A DNA stretch of 39,686 bases from an uncultured Granulosicoccaceae bacterium (lineage in GTDB: Bacteria > Pseudomonadota > Gammaproteobacteria > Granulosicoccales > Granulosicoccaceae): positions 1-39,686 of the forward strand of contig CALKXD010000273.1 of the NCBI GenBank assembly GCA_938003855.1, written 5' to 3'. The notes under the pieces are model-generated. The model did not search any database. It saw only the letters and a program-made list of their open reading frames with translations, and was not told the DNA's origin. How positions within the stretch are numbered: position 1 is the first letter of the stretch; every line of letters begins with the position of its first letter. Shown in pieces: positions 18,427-28,255 of the stretch. The translations under genes and the position numbers were made by a program.

Positions 18427-21400
18427 ATGGCTGACAACCAGCAAGATGACAGGAAAACACTGCGCGACGGGCACGCGGTCTATCGCGAAGATATTCGCGA
18501 CAAACATTTGCTGCCAGATGAGCCAAATGTCCGTAAATCCCTGAAATACGGGGCGGTTGGTTTATTGGGTATCGGGGTTGTCGGCATGTGGTCTGGCAAC
18601 GTGCAGCGCGAAGGCCAACTAGCAGAGATCTCAAGAGAAAAAGCACAGGTTGACAGTGAGGTAGTACAGCTGACGAGCACTCTGGACGAAGCAACTGGAA
18701 AAGTTGAAGACTACCAAGCGCAAATTGCAGAATTGAAAAAACAAGTTCAGAGCGCGACAGCAAAGCTCGAAGAGACCGTATCGGACCGTGACTCAAAGCT
18801 GGCCGAGGCTGGAGAGCAGGTGGCGGTTTTGGAACAGCAGATTGTCGAGAAAGAGACAGCGATAACCGAATTGCAGGGTTTGCAGTCATTGGTTGAATCG
18901 CAAATCGGACAGATTTCCGAGCTGGAAGCGATAAAAACGGAGGCCGTCACTGAGATCACATCTCTACGCAGAAAAACGTCTGTGGTGGATTCCCTGCAAG
19001 CGGAAATTGCTGAGCTAACCACCGCGCGCGGTGCCATGGAATCGCGGCTGGTTGATATCGACACGCGTTCGATTGATCTGGCTGAGCGAACGAACACAGT
19101 GACACAAGAACGCGATGATGCCTTGCAGAAACTTGCTGAACTTGATGCAGAAAAGCAAGGAATGGTGTCTGAGCTTGGAATGCTGCGTTCAAGCCTTGCG
19201 GATGGGGCTGAAGCGGCCGACACCCTGAAGCAATCCTATGCTGACCTCGAAGCACAGTCGAACGGGAAATTGTATGAGCTGGAAGGCCAAATCACCGCTC
19301 TGACGGAGGAGTTAGGCGACGGTGAGGCGAAACGAGAAAATCTGCAAAAAAAAGTGGCGGAGCTCAATCAGCAACTTGACGGGATCACCGCAGAAAAGAA
19401 TTCGCTGCAGGCTGAGCTGGCCAGTGGCACGACCCAGATTCAGGTGCTGGGCGCTGAGCGGGATTCTCTGGCCGAGGCACTGGCCACACAGAAGCTTCAA
19501 AGCGCCAACAAAATCGAGGAAGCCGTTGCATCATTTGGTCTGATGTCGACTGAACGGGATGGACTGCAGCAGCAACTGTCGTTGGTCAGTGGCGAGTATG
19601 AAAGCAGCAAAAAGGCGGCAGAAGGTACCATTGCGGATCTTGAAGGCGAGGTTGATGCGCTTAGCAAAGAAGTCGTTAATTTAACGCAGGCGCGTGATGC
19701 GCTGAAGGCAGAAAAAGCCCAGGTTGAGTCTGACCTGGCTGCTTTGTCAGAAGACAGTGAAACTCAGATCGCCTCTTTGACCTCGGAGCGGGATGCGGTG
19801 GCGGGTAACCTTGAGGCATTACAAGCAGACAGTTCCGGCCAGATCAACGAACTGCAATCTCAGGTTAATGGTTTATCGCAGCAAGTGGCTGACCTGACTT
19901 CAGCGAAAGATGTGCTTATCGAAGAAAAAACCAAGGTTGAAACAGATCTCGCTACCTTGATCGAGGAAAGCTCAGGCCAGGTGTCTGCTCTGACATCAGA
20001 GCGTGACGGGATCAGCGACAAGCTTGATCTGTTGCGCGGCGAAAGTTCAGTGAAAATTTCGGGTCTCGAAGATCAGGTGGGCGGCTTGACTCAGGAGGTA
20101 GCCGAACTCACGGCGGTTAGAGATGCACTGAAAGCAGAAAAAACACAGGTTGAGACTGAGCTTGCAGCGCTGCGCGACAGTAGCACTGCGAAAATAACCG
20201 GTCTTGAAGAGCAGGTAGATACACTTTCGCAAGAAGTCGCCTCTCTGGCGGCAACGCGCGACAGCTTGACGGCTGAACAAACCAAAATCGAAGCGGAACT
20301 GGCATCGGTAACGGAGCAGAAGGTGTTAGCAGAGACAGAGCTGACCTCTTTGGCTGATAGCAGTTCCGGTCAAATCACCGCACTGGCAGCCGAGCGCGAA
20401 GATATTGCGGGTCGATTGCAATTGTTAACTGAAGCCAGTGGATCAGAAATTACCGGATTACGCGCGCAGGTCACTGATCTGACCGGGCAGGTTTCTGATC
20501 TTTCGGCGCAACGTGACACCATGGTCGCCGAACTTGAAGCGTTGCAGGATGAAAAGCAGAAGCTGGCAGCAGAAAGCGAAAGTAAACTTGGATTATTTCA
20601 GGCTGATGTCATGCAGCTGACCAAAGAACGTGACGACATGACTTCACGGTCTGATGCCTACCGTGCTGAGACGCAGGCGACTCTGGCGATGCTGGAGTCA
20701 GATATTGATGACTTAAACGGGCAGATAGAAACACTGGCAGCTGAGCGCGGGGCGCTGGAAAAACGCAACCTCGAAGGTGAGCAGTCTCTGGCAGATCTGC
20801 GTGGTGAACGGGATGTGATTCAAGCGCGTCTGGACGAACTCGCCGCGAGTGGCTCAGAAAAAATAGAGAGCTTGCAGGGGCAGATTGCATCGATGGAAGG
20901 AGAGCTCTCGGATTTGACCGCGGAACGTGATCGGCTCAATACTGACTTACAAGCTGCTGCAGAGAACAACTCGTTGCTCAGTAGCTCACGCGATATGGTG
21001 AGCAGGGAGAAATCGCTGCTGCAGGGAATCGTCGACAGTGAGCGGGCCGCCGGTCAAGAAAAGAGAGTACAGCTGGAAGAGCAGGTGGCTGCCCTGAACA
21101 CAGAGCTCAGCGCCGTCAAAGCCAGTGAGCAGGAGGCCGCAGCGCAGGTGGCCGATATGGACCGCCAACTCAATGAAATGAGGCTGGCAAGAGATTCTGT
21201 CGCCACAGAGCGCAACGGTTTGTTTTCGCAAATACAGAGCAGTCAAGCGCAGATTGGTGAGTTGGACAGTTTACTGGCCGATCTGAACCTTCGTCTAGCC
21301 AGCGATGCCGAGCAGCGCTCTTCGTTGCAACAGGAGCTGGATGGTTTAAAGCTGGAAAATTCCCAGCGTGTAGCTTCGTTACAGGCCACAGTGGATGAGC

Positions 21401-23070
21401 TAAGTAATCAGAATTCGACCATTCTGGAAGACCGCGCAGCTATGGAGGCAAAGCTCAATGCTGCGCTGGCTGACAGTACCAATGCCTCTACCGCGCTGGA
21501 AGCACAATTGCTGGAGGTGTCTCAGCGTCGGGATGCTCTGTTGGCAGAGTTGGAAAGCCTCAACGCCGACAATTCAGCAACGCTTGATAAACTGAACGGT
21601 GATCTTGGTGCCTTGACTCAAGCAAAGGCAGCCGCGGACAAGGAGCTTGCCGAGGTGGTGGCGGCCAAGTCGGCGGTTGAGGGCGAACTCGCCGATGCGT
21701 TAGCTGCCAGGACAGCTATTGAGGGTGAGCTTGCCGATGCTGCGCAAGCCAAAGCGGCGGTTGAGAGTGAGCTCGCCGGTGTAACGGAGGCTAAGGTTGC
21801 GTTGGAAAGCGAGCTTGCCAGTGTCACTGATGCGAAGGCTGCTGTAGAGAGTGAACTTGCCGGTGTTGCAGAGGCTAAGGTTGCCCTGGAAGCTGAACTT
21901 GCCAGTGTCACGGAAGCCAAGGCTGCCGTAGAGAACAACCTTGCCAGTGTCACAGCTGCCACGGCTGCGGTGGAGAGTGAGCTTGCACGTATGGCGGCAG
22001 CACAGACTGCTGTTGAGAGTGATTTGGCCGGTGTGGTCGATGAGAAAGCAGGGCTTGATGCCGACTTTGCAGCGCTGGCCGCAGAGAAAGCCGCAACCGA
22101 AGCTGAGCTTGCCGGGCTGGTGGAAGCTAAGGCGGGGCTCGACGCTGAACTTGAAGCGGCACTCAGCAAGGCCACGGAGCTTGCTGCAACCGGAAAAAGT
22201 CTTGCCGAGGAACGGGACTACCTGCTTGGTTTACTGGATAATGAGCGAGATTTGCTGCACGCAGCAACGACAGACAAGGAAGCTCAGAGTGAGCGTATCG
22301 CTGACCTGGACGGCGAGCTTGTTGCGCTCAAGGGCGAGCTTGAAACTGCCCGGGCAGCCAGCGAGCAACGTGGTGATCAGACACAGATGCTTGAAACTCA
22401 GGTAGATAAATTTGAGGGACAAATTGACAAGCTGAACACGCAGCTGTCGGCGCTGTCTGAGTCGCGGGATGCAGCACGACGAGAGCTTGATGATTTACGT
22501 AGTAATCTTGACAACGCGGAAGAGCAGTTAATTAGCTCGCGTCGTGAGATTGATCAGTTGATGGCGGTGAAAGTATCAACTGAAGATAAGTTACGCGCCG
22601 ATCAGGTAAGAGCGATCGATGTTGGTGAGTCTGTGACAACGAGCTTGCTGGATGCGGGTGTTAACGATGCTACGGTGCGGGTAAGAAGTGATAATTCGAT
22701 CGGTATTCGAGTCGCCAGTGGCAGCTTGTTTACGACGGGAAGTACAACGGTGAGTCCCGAAGGACAATCGGTGCTGGGTATCGTTGGTGACACGATCGGT
22801 GGTTATGATGACTACGGCATTCGTGTTGAAGGCCACACTGACAACATCCCCATAGGTGAAGCACTGGCACAGGTCTACAAGAGCAACTGGGAACTATCGG
22901 TGGCGCGGGCTGCGTCAGCGGTTCGGTATCTGAGCAGTCAGGGCGGGATCGAAGCCAATCGTATGTCTGCGGTAGGTTTTGGCGAGTACAATCCCGTGGC
23001 CGATAATGAGACCGATGCCGGTCGCGAGCAGAACCGTCGTGTCGAGATAGTGCTTTACCCGAGACGATAG
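18427..23070 (+). CDS. Giant membrane-anchored coiled-coil protein with MotB/OmpA-type peptidoglycan-binding domain
   Basis: This 1547-residue protein starts with about 40 polar cytoplasmic residues, then one membrane helix at about 41-55 (GAVGLLGIGVVGMW). There is no cleavable signal. Residues 60-1400 or so are an almost unbroken heptad-rich coiled coil of Glu, Leu, Ala, Gln and Ser. The last 130 residues are an OmpA/MotB domain: VEGHTDNIPI with Asp1472, SNWELSVARAASAVRYL with Arg1494, and GFGEYNPVADNETDAGREQ, the pattern that holds the peptidoglycan peptide. The inferred layout is cytoplasmic N terminus, periplasmic rod and wall-bound C terminus. The coil contains two repeat families, listed separately. 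A good ribosome site (AAGAGGA) precedes the ATG. Its function is unknown; envelope spacing, anchoring of a large machine or cell-shape work are guesses. Confidence 0.9.
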   Translation: MADNQQDDRKTLRDGHAVYREDIRDKHLLPDEPNVRKSLKYGAVGLLGIGVVGMWSGNVQREGQLAEISREKAQVDSEVVQLTSTLDEATGKVEDYQAQIAELKKQVQSATAKLEETVSDRDSKLAEAGEQVAVLEQQIVEKETAITELQGLQSLVESQIGQISELEAIKTEAVTEITSLRRKTSVVDSLQAEIAELTTARGAMESRLVDIDTRSIDLAERTNTVTQERDDALQKLAELDAEKQGMVSELGMLRSSLADGAEAADTLKQSYADLEAQSNGKLYELEGQITALTEELGDGEAKRENLQKKVAELNQQLDGITAEKNSLQAELASGTTQIQVLGAERDSLAEALATQKLQSANKIEEAVASFGLMSTERDGLQQQLSLVSGEYESSKKAAEGTIADLEGEVDALSKEVVNLTQARDALKAEKAQVESDLAALSEDSETQIASLTSERDAVAGNLEALQADSSGQINELQSQVNGLSQQVADLTSAKDVLIEEKTKVETDLATLIEESSGQVSALTSERDGISDKLDLLRGESSVKISGLEDQVGGLTQEVAELTAVRDALKAEKTQVETELAALRDSSTAKITGLEEQVDTLSQEVASLAATRDSLTAEQTKIEAELASVTEQKVLAETELTSLADSSSGQITALAAEREDIAGRLQLLTEASGSEITGLRAQVTDLTGQVSDLSAQRDTMVAELEALQDEKQKLAAESESKLGLFQADVMQLTKERDDMTSRSDAYRAETQATLAMLESDIDDLNGQIETLAAERGALEKRNLEGEQSLADLRGERDVIQARLDELAASGSEKIESLQGQIASMEGELSDLTAERDRLNTDLQAAAENNSLLSSSRDMVSREKSLLQGIVDSERAAGQEKRVQLEEQVAALNTELSAVKASEQEAAAQVADMDRQLNEMRLARDSVATERNGLFSQIQSSQAQIGELDSLLADLNLRLASDAEQRSSLQQELDGLKLENSQRVASLQATVDELSNQNSTILEDRAAMEAKLNAALADSTNASTALEAQLLEVSQRRDALLAELESLNADNSATLDKLNGDLGALTQAKAAADKELAEVVAAKSAVEGELADALAARTAIEGELADAAQAKAAVESELAGVTEAKVALESELASVTDAKAAVESELAGVAEAKVALEAELASVTEAKAAVENNLASVTAATAAVESELARMAAAQTAVESDLAGVVDEKAGLDADFAALAAEKAATEAELAGLVEAKAGLDAELEAALSKATELAATGKSLAEERDYLLGLLDNERDLLHAATTDKEAQSERIADLDGELVALKGELETARAASEQRGDQTQMLETQVDKFEGQIDKLNTQLSALSESRDAARRELDDLRSNLDNAEEQLISSRREIDQLMAVKVSTEDKLRADQVRAIDVGESVTTSLLDAGVNDATVRVRSDNSIGIRVASGSLFTTGSTTVSPEGQSVLGIVGDTIGGYDDYGIRVEGHTDNIPIGEALAQVYKSNWELSVARAASAVRYLSSQGGIEANRMSAVGFGEYNPVADNETDAGREQNRRVEIVLYPRR
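19630..20448 (+). repeat. Coding repeats of about 71 residues within the giant coiled-coil gene
   Basis: Four related consecutive segments encode residues 402-472 (71), 473-543 (71), 544-589 (46) and 590-674 (85). Each begins with a pattern like I-x-x-L-x-x-Q/E-V-x-x-L-S/T-Q-E/Q-V-x-x-L and continues with R/K-D-x-L-x-x-E-x-T/A-K/Q-V/I-E-x-x-L. The third lacks the terminal 25 residues containing TSERD. The fourth has 14 extra residues, equal to the unit of the second repeat family. A fifth, weaker start (ITGLRAQVTDLTGQV) begins at residue 675. Confidence 0.8.
21619..22164 (+). repeat. Thirteen tandem 42-base (14-residue) coding repeats
   Basis: Thirteen in-frame units of exactly 14 residues cover residues 1065-1246, each close to the form x-AK-A-A-V-E-S-E-L-A-x-V-x. 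Two heptads per unit keep the coiled-coil register. Units 5-8 alternate between EAKVALESELASVT-like and AKAAVESELAGVA-like forms, so a 28-residue (84-base) higher-order duplication is visible. The DNA is also alike between units, which suggests recent expansion. Confidence 0.9.
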
Positions 23071-23161: not shown

Positions 23162-23752
23162 ATGCGCATACCTCTGTTCCCGTTGTCCAGCATTGTTTTG
23201 CCTGGCGGATTGCTGCCGCTACGCCTGTTTGAGCGGCGTTATCTGGATATGGTGCGGGACTGTTTCCGGCAACAGTCTGGTTTCGGTGTGTGCCTGGTCA
23301 AGCAAGGCGGGGAGGTGGGCGATGCTGCGTTGCCTTATCCATGTGGAACCCTGATAAAAATAATTGACTGGGATCAGGATGACGGTGGTTTGCTGAACAT
23401 TGTTGTGCAGGGTGAGCAGAAATTTCGAATCACCGAAACCAGCGTTGACGACGCTCAACTGCTGTCTGGTGAGGTCGAGCTTCTGCCTCTCGAGGTACCG
23501 GCGCCAGTGCCTGATGATCTCTCCTACCTGCAGGACTCCATGCAGCAGATTCTGCGACAGGTCGCACCGTCAATTGAGTATCAGCAACCGCAGTTTGATG
23601 ATGCGTTGTGGCTGGGTAGTCGCTATGTTGAGTTACTGCCGGTGCCAGGGGATGTCAAACACGAGTTGGTGGCGATGAATGATCCTGTAGGTCGGCTCAG
23701 ATCGATTGCAGATTTAATGGCTGCATTTTCAGTGGCGGTGCAAGACTCCTGA
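23162..23752 (+). CDS. Stand-alone Lon substrate-binding (LON N-terminal) domain protein
   Basis: This 196-residue protein matches the N-terminal domain of Lon protease without any ATPase or protease part. It opens with IPLFPLSSIVLPGGLLPLRLFERRYLDMV, the family signature, and continues with the beta-rich core (GTLIKIIDWDQDDGGLLNIVVQGEQKF) and a helical C-terminal part. Such proteins are common in proteobacteria and their role is not well defined; binding of unfolded protein or a partner is presumed. It begins 91 bases after the giant gene, beyond the terminator, and converges with argA across 24 bases. Confidence 0.88.
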   Translation: MRIPLFPLSSIVLPGGLLPLRLFERRYLDMVRDCFRQQSGFGVCLVKQGGEVGDAALPYPCGTLIKIIDWDQDDGGLLNIVVQGEQKFRITETSVDDAQLLSGEVELLPLEVPAPVPDDLSYLQDSMQQILRQVAPSIEYQQPQFDDALWLGSRYVELLPVPGDVKHELVAMNDPVGRLRSIADLMAAFSVAVQDS

Positions 23753-25432: not shown

Positions 25433-28255
25433 TTGCGAAAATTAAAATTGGGCTTTCTGGTGTTTTCCCTGGCGCTTGCCGTGTTACCTGCTCGTGCGCA
25501 GGAGGCCAGTGTTGAGTGGTCGGGGGTAATCGCCAAAGCGGTGCCTTCGGTGGTGTCTTTGCAGATCTCCTATGTGCGCGATTTTGTTGAAGCGGATCAA
25601 GGGGTGAGTTCTGCAACCGGGTTTGTGGTCGATGCCGAAAAGGGCATAATTTTGACGAACCGGCATGTGGTTGGTGCCGGTCCGGTTGCCATCACCGCGA
25701 CCTTTCAAAATCTCGAGCGAATAGACGTGGTTCCGCTGTACCGGGATCCGGTGCATGATTTTGGTTTTTTGCGGTATGACCCCAATGAGCTAAAACGTAA
25801 TGCGCCTGAGTCATTGACGCTTAACCCGGCGGGTGCGGCGGTTGGGACCGATATACGTGTGATAGGCAGTGATGGTGGTGAGCAGTTGTCAATTCTGGCG
25901 GGAACGATAGCGCGCGTCGATCGGCGTGCTCCGAATTATGGTCGCTATGGCCACAATGATTTCAATACCTTTTATTTGCAGGCGGCTTCGTCAACGTCTG
26001 GTGGATCCTCCGGCTCTCCGGTGCTGAATCAATCAGGAGAAGTCATTGCTTTAAATGCTGCGGCAAACAGCAGCACGGCAAGCAGTTTCTTTCTGCCGCT
26101 GGACAGAATTAAATACGCGCTGGAAAAACTCCAGGCGGGTGAGCCTGTCGCACGCGGTACTGTGCAAACGGTATTTGAGCAGCGTCCGTTTCGGTTGCTG
26201 AGCCGGTTGGGGTTGAGTGACGATGTTGCACAGCGTATCCAGCAGGAGTTTCCGCAAAGTAACGGCATGCTGCTGGCCAGGCAAATACTGGTCGGTGGTG
26301 TTGCTGAACAGAGTCTGCAGGAAGGGGATATTCTGCTGGCGATCAACGGTCAGCCGGTCCCCGAATTTATTCGCCTGGCGGAGATTCTGGATTCGTCGAT
26401 TGGAAAGGAGATCGAGTTTTCTGTCATTCGACAAGGGCAGACGGTGGTCGAGAAAGTTGTTGTGCAGGATATGGAGTCCCTGCAACCCAGGCGACTGGTG
26501 GAGTTGGGTGGATCGGTTTTCCATAATGTTTCCGTGCAGCGAGCGCGTGGCATGAATCTGCCGCAGCGTGGTGTGATCGTGGCCAAATCCGGTTATGAGT
26601 TTGCCCGGGCAGGTGTGCCTCGTGATGCACTGATCACTGAGCTGAATGGACTGCCGGTCAACACCGTAGAAGACTTACTGGAGACAATCCGCACAGCCAC
26701 CGGAAGCACCGAGTGGCGGCTGCGCTTTATAGAGCCGGGTAGAGAGTTTACTTCGGCTGTGGCGCGTGTCGATATCAATAGTAAATGGTTTGGTGCAAAA
26801 ACCTGTGATCAGCGCGATGACGTCCGTTTCTGGGCGTGCGAGGCTGTGGAAGTGTCGGAAAGTAGTGAACCCCCAAAGCCACTCACCAACGTTGTATTGC
26901 CCGGCTATAAAGATCCACGTATTCAGGCCGTAGCGCCCTCGTTGGTGCGATTGTCGTTTGATATACCGCATGCGGTTGATAACGTTTATGCCAAGAGTTT
27001 TAGTGGAGTAGGCTTGATCGTTGATGCAGAGCGAGGGCTGGTGGTTACGGATCGAAATACTGTGCCTATTGAGTTGGGTGATCTGGAAATGACTTTTTTC
27101 TCAACCTACAAAATACCCGGGCGAGTTGCGTATTTACATCCTTTGCACAATATAGCGTTGCTGGAATACGACCCGTCATTGCTTGGTGATGTGACGATAA
27201 AACCGTTGCCATTGGCGGACAGCTTTCCTGCGCTGGATAACCCGCTCGAGTTAATTGGTTATCGAAATGACGGCACTATTCGAAAGCAAAATGTACCGAA
27301 TCCCTCTGAAGTAACTTTGTACTTCAGTCTTCCGCAGCTGTCTCGCTTCCAGCAAGTGCCGATTGATGTTCTCAGTGTCGCGCTGCCGGGTCCGACCCTG
27401 GGTGGTCCGCTGGTCGATGGGGATGGCGTTGTGCAGGCGTTGTGGCAGAGTTTTGCCTATCAGGACGGTGACGATATCAAGGAAGCTGAGTGGGCAATGC
27501 CCGCTGCAATGGTGCGCAGAGTGGTTGAGCAATATTTGAGTGAAAAGCCGTTTTATGTTGCCCCGGCGATGTTCCAGTACAAGTCGCTTGATCTGGCCAG
27601 AGAGCAAGGCCTGGCGGACGAATGGATTGCAAAAATAGCGGCGTCAGGTGTCGAGCATCGGCGCGCTATTTCAATTAGTCAGGTCGTCGGTACAGCTGCT
27701 AATTCGCTTAAGACCGGGGATATACTTCTTGACGTTGATGGGCAGCTGCCATCTACTCTGAGTGAACTTGAAGCGCTGTTTCAAAGGGAGCGCGTCAGTG
27801 TGCTGGTGCTGCGCAACGGGCAGGAAATCAGTGTGGAAGTCACCCCCATTGAGCATGCCCGGCAGGGTACCGACCGGGCTCTCCTCTGGGCTGGGTCTCT
27901 GATTCAGGAAGCGCACTTTGAGCTGGGGTATCAGCGTGGCAACATTACCGAAGGAGTCTTCATCAGCGGCACTCTGAGCGGTTCTCCTTCGATCCAGGAT
28001 CGGCTCTACCGCAATCGATTTATTGTCGCTGTTGAAGGTGTACCGATAGCTTCTATCGACGACTTTATCTCCGAGGTTGCTAAGAAAGATCCAGCCGATC
28101 CTGTGCGTCTCACGGTGGTTGCAATGAACGGTTATCGTTCGGTGGTCAGTATTCAGCCTGAGTATAATTTCTGGCCGACCACGGAACTCTGGCGAACGGA
28201 TTCCGGCTGGCAGCGAAGAAATCTGAATCCGGATACCGTGGCGGTTGTAGATTAG
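25433..28255 (+). CDS. Periplasmic Deg7/Nma111-like protein: active and dead trypsin-type domains plus PDZ domains
   Basis: This 940-residue protein begins with a Sec signal peptide: basic RKLK, a hydrophobic run, and cleavage likely after ARA at residue 22. Domain 1 (about 30-235) is a DegP-type protease with a full triad: His78 in TNRHVVG, Asp109 in VHDFGFL and Ser193 in GGSSGSP. Two PDZ-like domains follow (about 255-345 and 355-445). Domain 2 (about 497-705) has the same fold, but the triad positions are Asn542, Asn573 and Leu656, so it cannot be catalytic. Two more PDZ-like segments end the protein. This is the layout of plant Deg7 and yeast Nma111. Translation starts with TTG at 25433, with GGA seven bases upstream. 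The likely role is periplasmic protein quality control. Confidence 0.85.
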   Translation: MRKLKLGFLVFSLALAVLPARAQEASVEWSGVIAKAVPSVVSLQISYVRDFVEADQGVSSATGFVVDAEKGIILTNRHVVGAGPVAITATFQNLERIDVVPLYRDPVHDFGFLRYDPNELKRNAPESLTLNPAGAAVGTDIRVIGSDGGEQLSILAGTIARVDRRAPNYGRYGHNDFNTFYLQAASSTSGGSSGSPVLNQSGEVIALNAAANSSTASSFFLPLDRIKYALEKLQAGEPVARGTVQTVFEQRPFRLLSRLGLSDDVAQRIQQEFPQSNGMLLARQILVGGVAEQSLQEGDILLAINGQPVPEFIRLAEILDSSIGKEIEFSVIRQGQTVVEKVVVQDMESLQPRRLVELGGSVFHNVSVQRARGMNLPQRGVIVAKSGYEFARAGVPRDALITELNGLPVNTVEDLLETIRTATGSTEWRLRFIEPGREFTSAVARVDINSKWFGAKTCDQRDDVRFWACEAVEVSESSEPPKPLTNVVLPGYKDPRIQAVAPSLVRLSFDIPHAVDNVYAKSFSGVGLIVDAERGLVVTDRNTVPIELGDLEMTFFSTYKIPGRVAYLHPLHNIALLEYDPSLLGDVTIKPLPLADSFPALDNPLELIGYRNDGTIRKQNVPNPSEVTLYFSLPQLSRFQQVPIDVLSVALPGPTLGGPLVDGDGVVQALWQSFAYQDGDDIKEAEWAMPAAMVRRVVEQYLSEKPFYVAPAMFQYKSLDLAREQGLADEWIAKIAASGVEHRRAISISQVVGTAANSLKTGDILLDVDGQLPSTLSELEALFQRERVSVLVLRNGQEISVEVTPIEHARQGTDRALLWAGSLIQEAHFELGYQRGNITEGVFISGTLSGSPSIQDRLYRNRFIVAVEGVPIASIDDFISEVAKKDPADPVRLTVVAMNGYRSVVSIQPEYNFWPTTELWRTDSGWQRRNLNPDTVAVVD

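Follow-up and report, generated by a model that had tools for sequence, protein, structure and literature searches.

Do bacteria possess full-length relatives of the tandem proteases Deg7 of plants and Nma111 of fungi? The question is raised by a gene in a 39,686-nucleotide stretch of DNA (the window, by which we mean the whole stretch that was analysed) from an uncultured Granulosicoccaceae bacterium, the genome of which comprises 6.8 Mb in 312 contigs. A sequence-only reading of the window had proposed that this gene encodes a secreted protein with the Deg7/Nma111 layout, in which the first protease domain keeps its catalytic triad and the second has lost it fully. Our analysis supports this interpretation and extends it, as the kinship with Deg7 and Nma111 seems, from the alignments and trees below, to be one of full-length descent and more than a similar layout. 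In the literature on Deg7, Nma111/Ynm3 and gammaproteobacterial HtrA, outside subscription journals and as far as the accessible text goes, we found no description of a full-length bacterial relative.

Domain layout and the two halves

Behind a signal-peptide-like start the protein runs protease-PDZ-PDZ-protease-PDZ-PDZ (Table 1). The proposed Deg7-like layout was thus borne out, as this is the order PD-PDZ-PDZ-PDia-PDZ-PDZ given for the 1097-residue AtDeg7 in the accessible part of PMC3473262. The six residues on which the sequence-only reading relied (H78, D109, S193, N542, N573 and L656) were all found at the positions it gave, in the translation and in the alignment. The protein also follows the general HtrA-type (S1) pattern, a trypsin-type domain with an H-D-S triad and then PDZ. 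All 29 relatives in the alignment carry Pfam PDZ_1 (E no higher than 0.001), and the presence of PDZ_1 in the window protein points to the Nma111/Deg7 family.

Table 1. Features of the tandem protease gene in window coordinates
Feature	Position	Strand	Basis
Deg7/Nma111-type tandem HtrA protease gene	25433-28255	+	940 aa, TTG start; ORF and translation, Pfam, 29-row alignment of relatives
Predicted signal peptide, residues 1-22	25433-25498	+	Sequence reading; hydrophobic N-terminus in 104/110 relatives
Protease domain 1, residues 28-236, intact triad	25514-26140	+	Pfam Trypsin_2 61-207; H/D/S in 110/110 relatives
Catalytic His78 codon	25664-25666	+	Translation, alignment of relatives
Catalytic Asp109 codon	25757-25759	+	Translation, alignment of relatives
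Catalytic Ser193 codon	26009-26011	+	Translation, alignment of relatives
PDZ 1, residues 240-345	26150-26467	+	Pfam PDZ_6 287-333, PDZ 284-312; limits from alignment, approximate
PDZ 2 (Pfam PDZ_1), residues 346-440	26468-26752	+	PDZ_1 350-421, E 1.3e-18, 67.2 bits, cut-off 28
Protease domain 2, degenerate, residues 490-706	26900-27550	+	Profile match to DegP, AlphaFold, DegP Z 19.6
Asn542 at catalytic His position	27056-27058	+	N in 101/109 relatives, H in none
Asn573 at catalytic Asp position	27149-27151	+	N in 105/109 relatives, D in 4
Leu656 at catalytic Ser position	27398-27400	+	L/F/V/Y/I/R/G in 109/109 relatives, S in none
PDZ 3, residues 707-806	27551-27850	+	hhalign profile match to PDZ 1, E 7.8e-25; Pfam PDZ_6 gives three stretches
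PDZ 4, residues 807-912	27851-28168	+	Pfam PDZ_2 831-895; hhalign match to PDZ 2, E 5.7e-14

The TTG at 25433 is the first possible start of the frame in the window, and no Shine-Dalgarno sequence was obvious by eye near it. Relatives at 80% down to about 40% identity keep the frame whole, and it is therefore far from chance. Read by eye, residues 1-22 consist of a basic start, a hydrophobic run and A-R-A preceding Q-E. A hydrophobic stretch (12-residue mean hydropathy of at least 1.8) lies ahead of domain 1 in 104 of 110 relatives, with the other 6 under the 1.8 line, as compared with 6.4% of random internal 60-residue stretches. Because most bacterial members carry this stretch, and it is absent from the provisional eukaryotic sequences used for comparison (see below), the bacterial protein is most likely periplasmic, and would share that compartment with DegP. 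Export is thus predicted, in line with the earlier claim of a secreted protein.

We compared the two halves of the protein by profile alignment with hhalign. Half 1 (residues 28-470) aligned with half 2 (490-925) over 422 columns with E 3.7e-45 and a score of 337. PDZ 1 paired with PDZ 3 and PDZ 2 with PDZ 4 (Table 1), and the cross-pairs were far weaker (PDZ 1 with PDZ 4, 1.6e-4; PDZ 2 with PDZ 3, 6e-5; PDZ 1 with PDZ 2, 5e-5). Against a profile of ordinary Deg proteases, which was built from 10 sequences and is thinner than the half profiles, half 1 scored 271 and half 2 scored 218, both below 337. These scores support, but do not prove, a duplication of the protease-PDZ-PDZ unit inside a Deg7/Nma111-type lineage; judging from the sequences compared, this three-domain unit had already doubled by the time the sampled members parted.

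The likeness of half 2, too, to DegP, and the presence of two other Deg proteases in the host genome, would also fit an ordinary DegP/DegQ-type protease that was recently duplicated and the second copy of which decayed, its likeness to Deg7/Nma111 being a convergence of layout. In a tree of single domains, however, 31 first domains, 31 second domains and 11 Deg rows formed three separate groups, and both Deg proteases of the host genome fell in the Deg group; neither domain grouped with ordinary Deg proteases, and on this tree we rejected a recent DegP duplication. Decay would, moreover, not keep a mostly conserved Asn/Asn pair in a domain that all 109 relatives spanning it carry in a dead form, and the best PDZ_1 match per genome was higher in long frames (39.6-85 bits) than in the Deg-sized frames listed (at most 37.8 bits). 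We regard such a duplicate as a most improbable source of the protein. In the profile search against the Do family (DegP/DegQ) that the sequence-only reading had suggested, the window protein scored 137.6 bits with the NCBIfam model TIGR02037, far under its cut-off of 416.2, and so falls outside that family.

The dead second domain

A profile of domain 2 from 96 relatives matched DegP chains (best E 1.8e-6), and an AlphaFold model of residues 484-706 reached a pLDDT of 92.4 and a pTM of 0.90. Each of the 50 best Foldseek matches listed for this model was either a protease of the HtrA/Deg type or Rv3671c, a protease of M. tuberculosis, and VIA-align placed it on DegP with Z 19.6 (188 residues, 2.9 Å). 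Judged by the model, domain 2 is an HtrA-type trypsin fold, as the sequence-only reading had held. The full-length AlphaFold model was of middling confidence (pLDDT 77.8, pTM 0.67; domain-1 loops 148-171 and 188-191 below 50), and the arrangement of the domains was therefore left uninterpreted. In the PDB, the best sequence match of the window protein was HTRA2 (E 8.6e-20) and the best fold matches were DegP/DegQ; the best stretches shown in the single-sequence search fall in the first half, and no tandem-type structure is among the matches listed in either the sequence or the fold search.

We aligned 110 members after the removal of copies, 109 of which span domain 2. The triad of domain 1 is H/D/S in all 110, and the His and Ser of the triad are missing from their positions in domain 2 in all 109. 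The former His position holds N in 101 members, D in 3, S in 3, T in 1 and Y in 1; the Asp position holds N in 105 and D in 4 (L080, L094, L102 and L115); and the Ser position holds L (39), F (28), V (18), Y (14), I (7), R (2) or G (1). Ranked by conservation, D540-R541-N542-T543-V544-P545, H569-P570 and H572-N573 all stand in the top 25 of the 217 positions of domain 2, and the former Ser position ranks 169. Since the Asn/Asn pair is well kept and the Ser position is not, the site is, as far as the alignment tells, non-catalytic yet under constraint. The claim of a fully lost second triad thus holds for the triad itself, but lost does not mean eroded here, the first two positions being conserved as Asn.

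The mean share of the commonest residue was 0.55 in domain 2 and 0.74 in domain 1, with the PDZ domains about like domain 2. For L146 (918 aa, genome G729) and L147 (900 aa, genome G721), both of family code f140, the profile match ends at about position 570; their second halves have diverged beyond the profile, and the dead half can therefore evolve very fast in one lineage.

By analogy with Deg7, the window protein is most likely a periplasmic quality-control protease, the dead half of which serves assembly. If it works as HtrA proteases do, the PDZ domains would present misfolded or damaged envelope proteins to domain 1, which would cleave the presented chains with an activity that depends on assembly. 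Domain 2 would not cut but would hold the complex together via trimerisation, the role reported from Arabidopsis: AtDeg7 is cited in the accessible text of PMC3473262 as trimerising through its inactive domain, and for Deg7 orthologues other than AtDeg7 an assembly role of this domain is treated there as unsettled in the plant literature. The conserved Asn/Asn site of domain 2 may be used for folding or binding.

This last point leads to the main rival to the assembly role, namely that the dead domain is mainly a regulatory module which binds a substrate or ligand in the conserved former active-site cleft. The high ranks of the D540-P545 run, H569-P570 and H572-N573, set against the low rank of the former Ser, speak for such a module, as does the fact that an assembly surface does not need a kept cleft. 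The conserved cleft residues may, however, be structural, and Deg7, the sole relative with a reported role in the accessible text of PMC3473262, trimerises by its dead domain. We consider a mainly binding role somewhat unlikely. Taken as a whole, the protein is probably related over its full length to Deg7 of plants and Nma111 of fungi, and would be exported to the periplasm, where a live domain 1 would cut envelope proteins and a dead domain 2 would serve assembly; its activity, location and trimerisation are predicted.

Distribution and genome neighbours

By sequence, the window protein belongs to a large family in the Gammaproteobacteria. Of 36 Granulosicoccaceae genomes, its own included, 34 encode it whole or in large pieces, and the two without it (G006 and G031) are drafts, 93% and 90% complete. 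Among 21 genomes from other families of the class, G052 alone has it. In a sample of the class, 24 of 369 genomes, belonging to 14 family codes, had a PDZ_1 match of at least 39.6 bits; 23 of these frames are 934-1088 aa long and one is 426 aa, and each of the 24 scores above 500 bits with the family profile. Named genome contigs yielded at least 425 relatives, 80 of which were retained. Their names include Granulosicoccaceae, Woeseiaceae, Steroidobacteraceae, unplaced Gammaproteobacteria and the isolate Peristeroidobacter agariperforans, together with one titled Actinobacteria and one titled Rhodospirillaceae, which are MAG labels as deposited and could mislead. In a sample of the phylum, 5 of 398 genomes matched at 1e-60, and the first 25 genomes listed were all labelled as its own or as 'same class'. 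Plasmid records gave no match at 1e-60, on which ground spread by plasmids was ruled out, and viral contigs gave no confirmed relatives.

In Granulosicoccaceae loci, argA, which is also the setting in the window, and a UbiH-like gene are conserved neighbours of the protease. In the 55 loci L058-L112, the flank genes of which were identified from one representative per cluster, two genes of glycine cleavage stand a few kb upstream of the protease, gcvT in 31 loci and gcvH in 33. As these two settings are unrelated, we claim no functional partner from the neighbourhood. A DUF255 thioredoxin-like gene lies downstream of the protease in 21 of the same 55 loci. Within the window, 18427-23070 (+) encodes a protein of 1547 aa that has long stretches resembling coiled coils and ends in an OmpA domain; the C-terminal part of this protein was matched near the protease in 23 loci. 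A stand-alone Lon substrate-binding domain of 196 aa, without ATPase or protease, is encoded by 23162-23752 (+) and is retained close to the tandem protease in 24 loci.

Probable kinship with Deg7 and Nma111

For direct comparison we used provisional sequences of yeast Nma111 (997 aa) and of AtDeg7 (At3g03380, Q8RY22; Deg clade III) that do not come from database entries and are approximate, the AtDeg7 length alone (1097) agreeing with print. With the provisional Nma111 the window protein aligned end to end, at 32% over 922 aa, and a Woeseiaceae relative reached up to 39%. The provisional AtDeg7 aligned with the window protein half by half, at 41% (448 columns) and 27% (482 columns). Identity to the provisional yeast and AtDeg7 sequences was 55.5% and 54.5% in domain 1, and 23.5% and 25.3% in domain 2. 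The dead site of the provisional AtDeg7 reads N/N/F, as it does in 25 of 109 bacterial relatives, and that of the provisional Nma111 reads R/N/C in an automatic alignment; catalytic residue numbers for Nma111 were not found in our search of the accessible literature. The provisional Nma111 carries two Pfam PDZ_1 copies with 191.8 bits, versus 85 for the best bacterial member listed, a high score that would be expected if the PDZ_1 model rests on fungal sequences.

In the domain tree, domains 1 and 2 of the provisional eukaryotic sequences each fell in the matching bacterial group. The domain-2 rows of this tree are long, and the branch joining the two eukaryotic rows was flagged as a possible long-branch join. 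On such a placement the duplication would be older than the divergence of bacterial and eukaryotic forms, and so would the loss of the second triad. The full-length tree, which is unrooted, paired the two provisional rows (91/97) among bacteria other than Granulosicoccaceae, the yeast branch being very long. A half-1 tree rooted on Deg proteases had no resolved base, and forcing its 31 bacterial rows into one clade lowered the log-likelihood by 7.98 (AU p 0.038). With two provisional, long-branched rows, we take this as a hint, and no more, that the eukaryotic forms are nested within Gammaproteobacteria.

We tentatively suggest, as one possible history, that the eukaryotic Deg7/Nma111 gene came from a gammaproteobacterium in which duplication, fusion and the death of domain 2 had already been completed in the periplasm; the signal peptide would then have been lost and the tandem protease redeployed in stroma and nucleus. 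Transfer might instead have run from a eukaryote to Gammaproteobacteria, which would then have fitted the gene with a signal peptide; such a history would suit the patchy occurrence of the gene in the class (24 of 369 genomes, 14 family codes). The bacterial members are, however, very diverse, and descent looks vertical within Granulosicoccaceae, given 34 of 36 genomes and the conserved argA and UbiH-like neighbours. Nor do the provisional eukaryotic rows stand outside all bacterial rows in the rooted half-1 tree, where a single bacterial clade costs the 7.98 log units given above. Transfer from eukaryotes to bacteria is thus distinctly unlikely.

According to a proposal in PMC3473262, a duplication and a fusion gave rise to Deg7, and the second domain then lost its activity. 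If the same protein, fused and dead in its second half, spans a set of Gammaproteobacteria, that event would predate the parting of the bacterial and eukaryotic forms, and would not have occurred within plants or fungi. The origin of Deg7/Nma111, a conserved plant and fungal stress protease, would then become a plain tree question. The bacterial members, the existence of which should be a moderate surprise to a specialist, may serve as proteins for solving the tandem architecture, and domain 2 would be a natural case of a protease domain that evolved into a non-catalytic component, the dead site of which is conserved.

The window protein has the protease and PDZ folds in common with DegP, DegQ, DegS and HtrA2, but these have a single protease domain, whereas the window protein has two. 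The layout of Deg clade III (Deg7/Nma111), two trypsin-type and four PDZ domains in about 1000 aa, is that of the 940-aa window protein; so is the pattern of an intact first and a mutated second triad, which recurs in 110/110 and 109/109 relatives, and so is the PDZ_1 at the second PDZ position, well above its cut-off (Table 1). The differences lie in place and detail. According to the accessible text of PMC3473262, Deg7 is located in the chloroplast stroma. Nma111/Ynm3 is described, partly in cited titles, as a pro-apoptotic protease of the nucleus or cytoplasm that also acts as a chaperone, whereas the shorter window protein has a start like that of a signal peptide. The dead site of the provisional Nma111, which has R, N and a non-Ser residue in place of His, Asp and Ser, differs from the N/N/L of the window protein. 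The window protein is, then, a member of the known Deg7/Nma111 family in an unexpected place, and no new kind of system.
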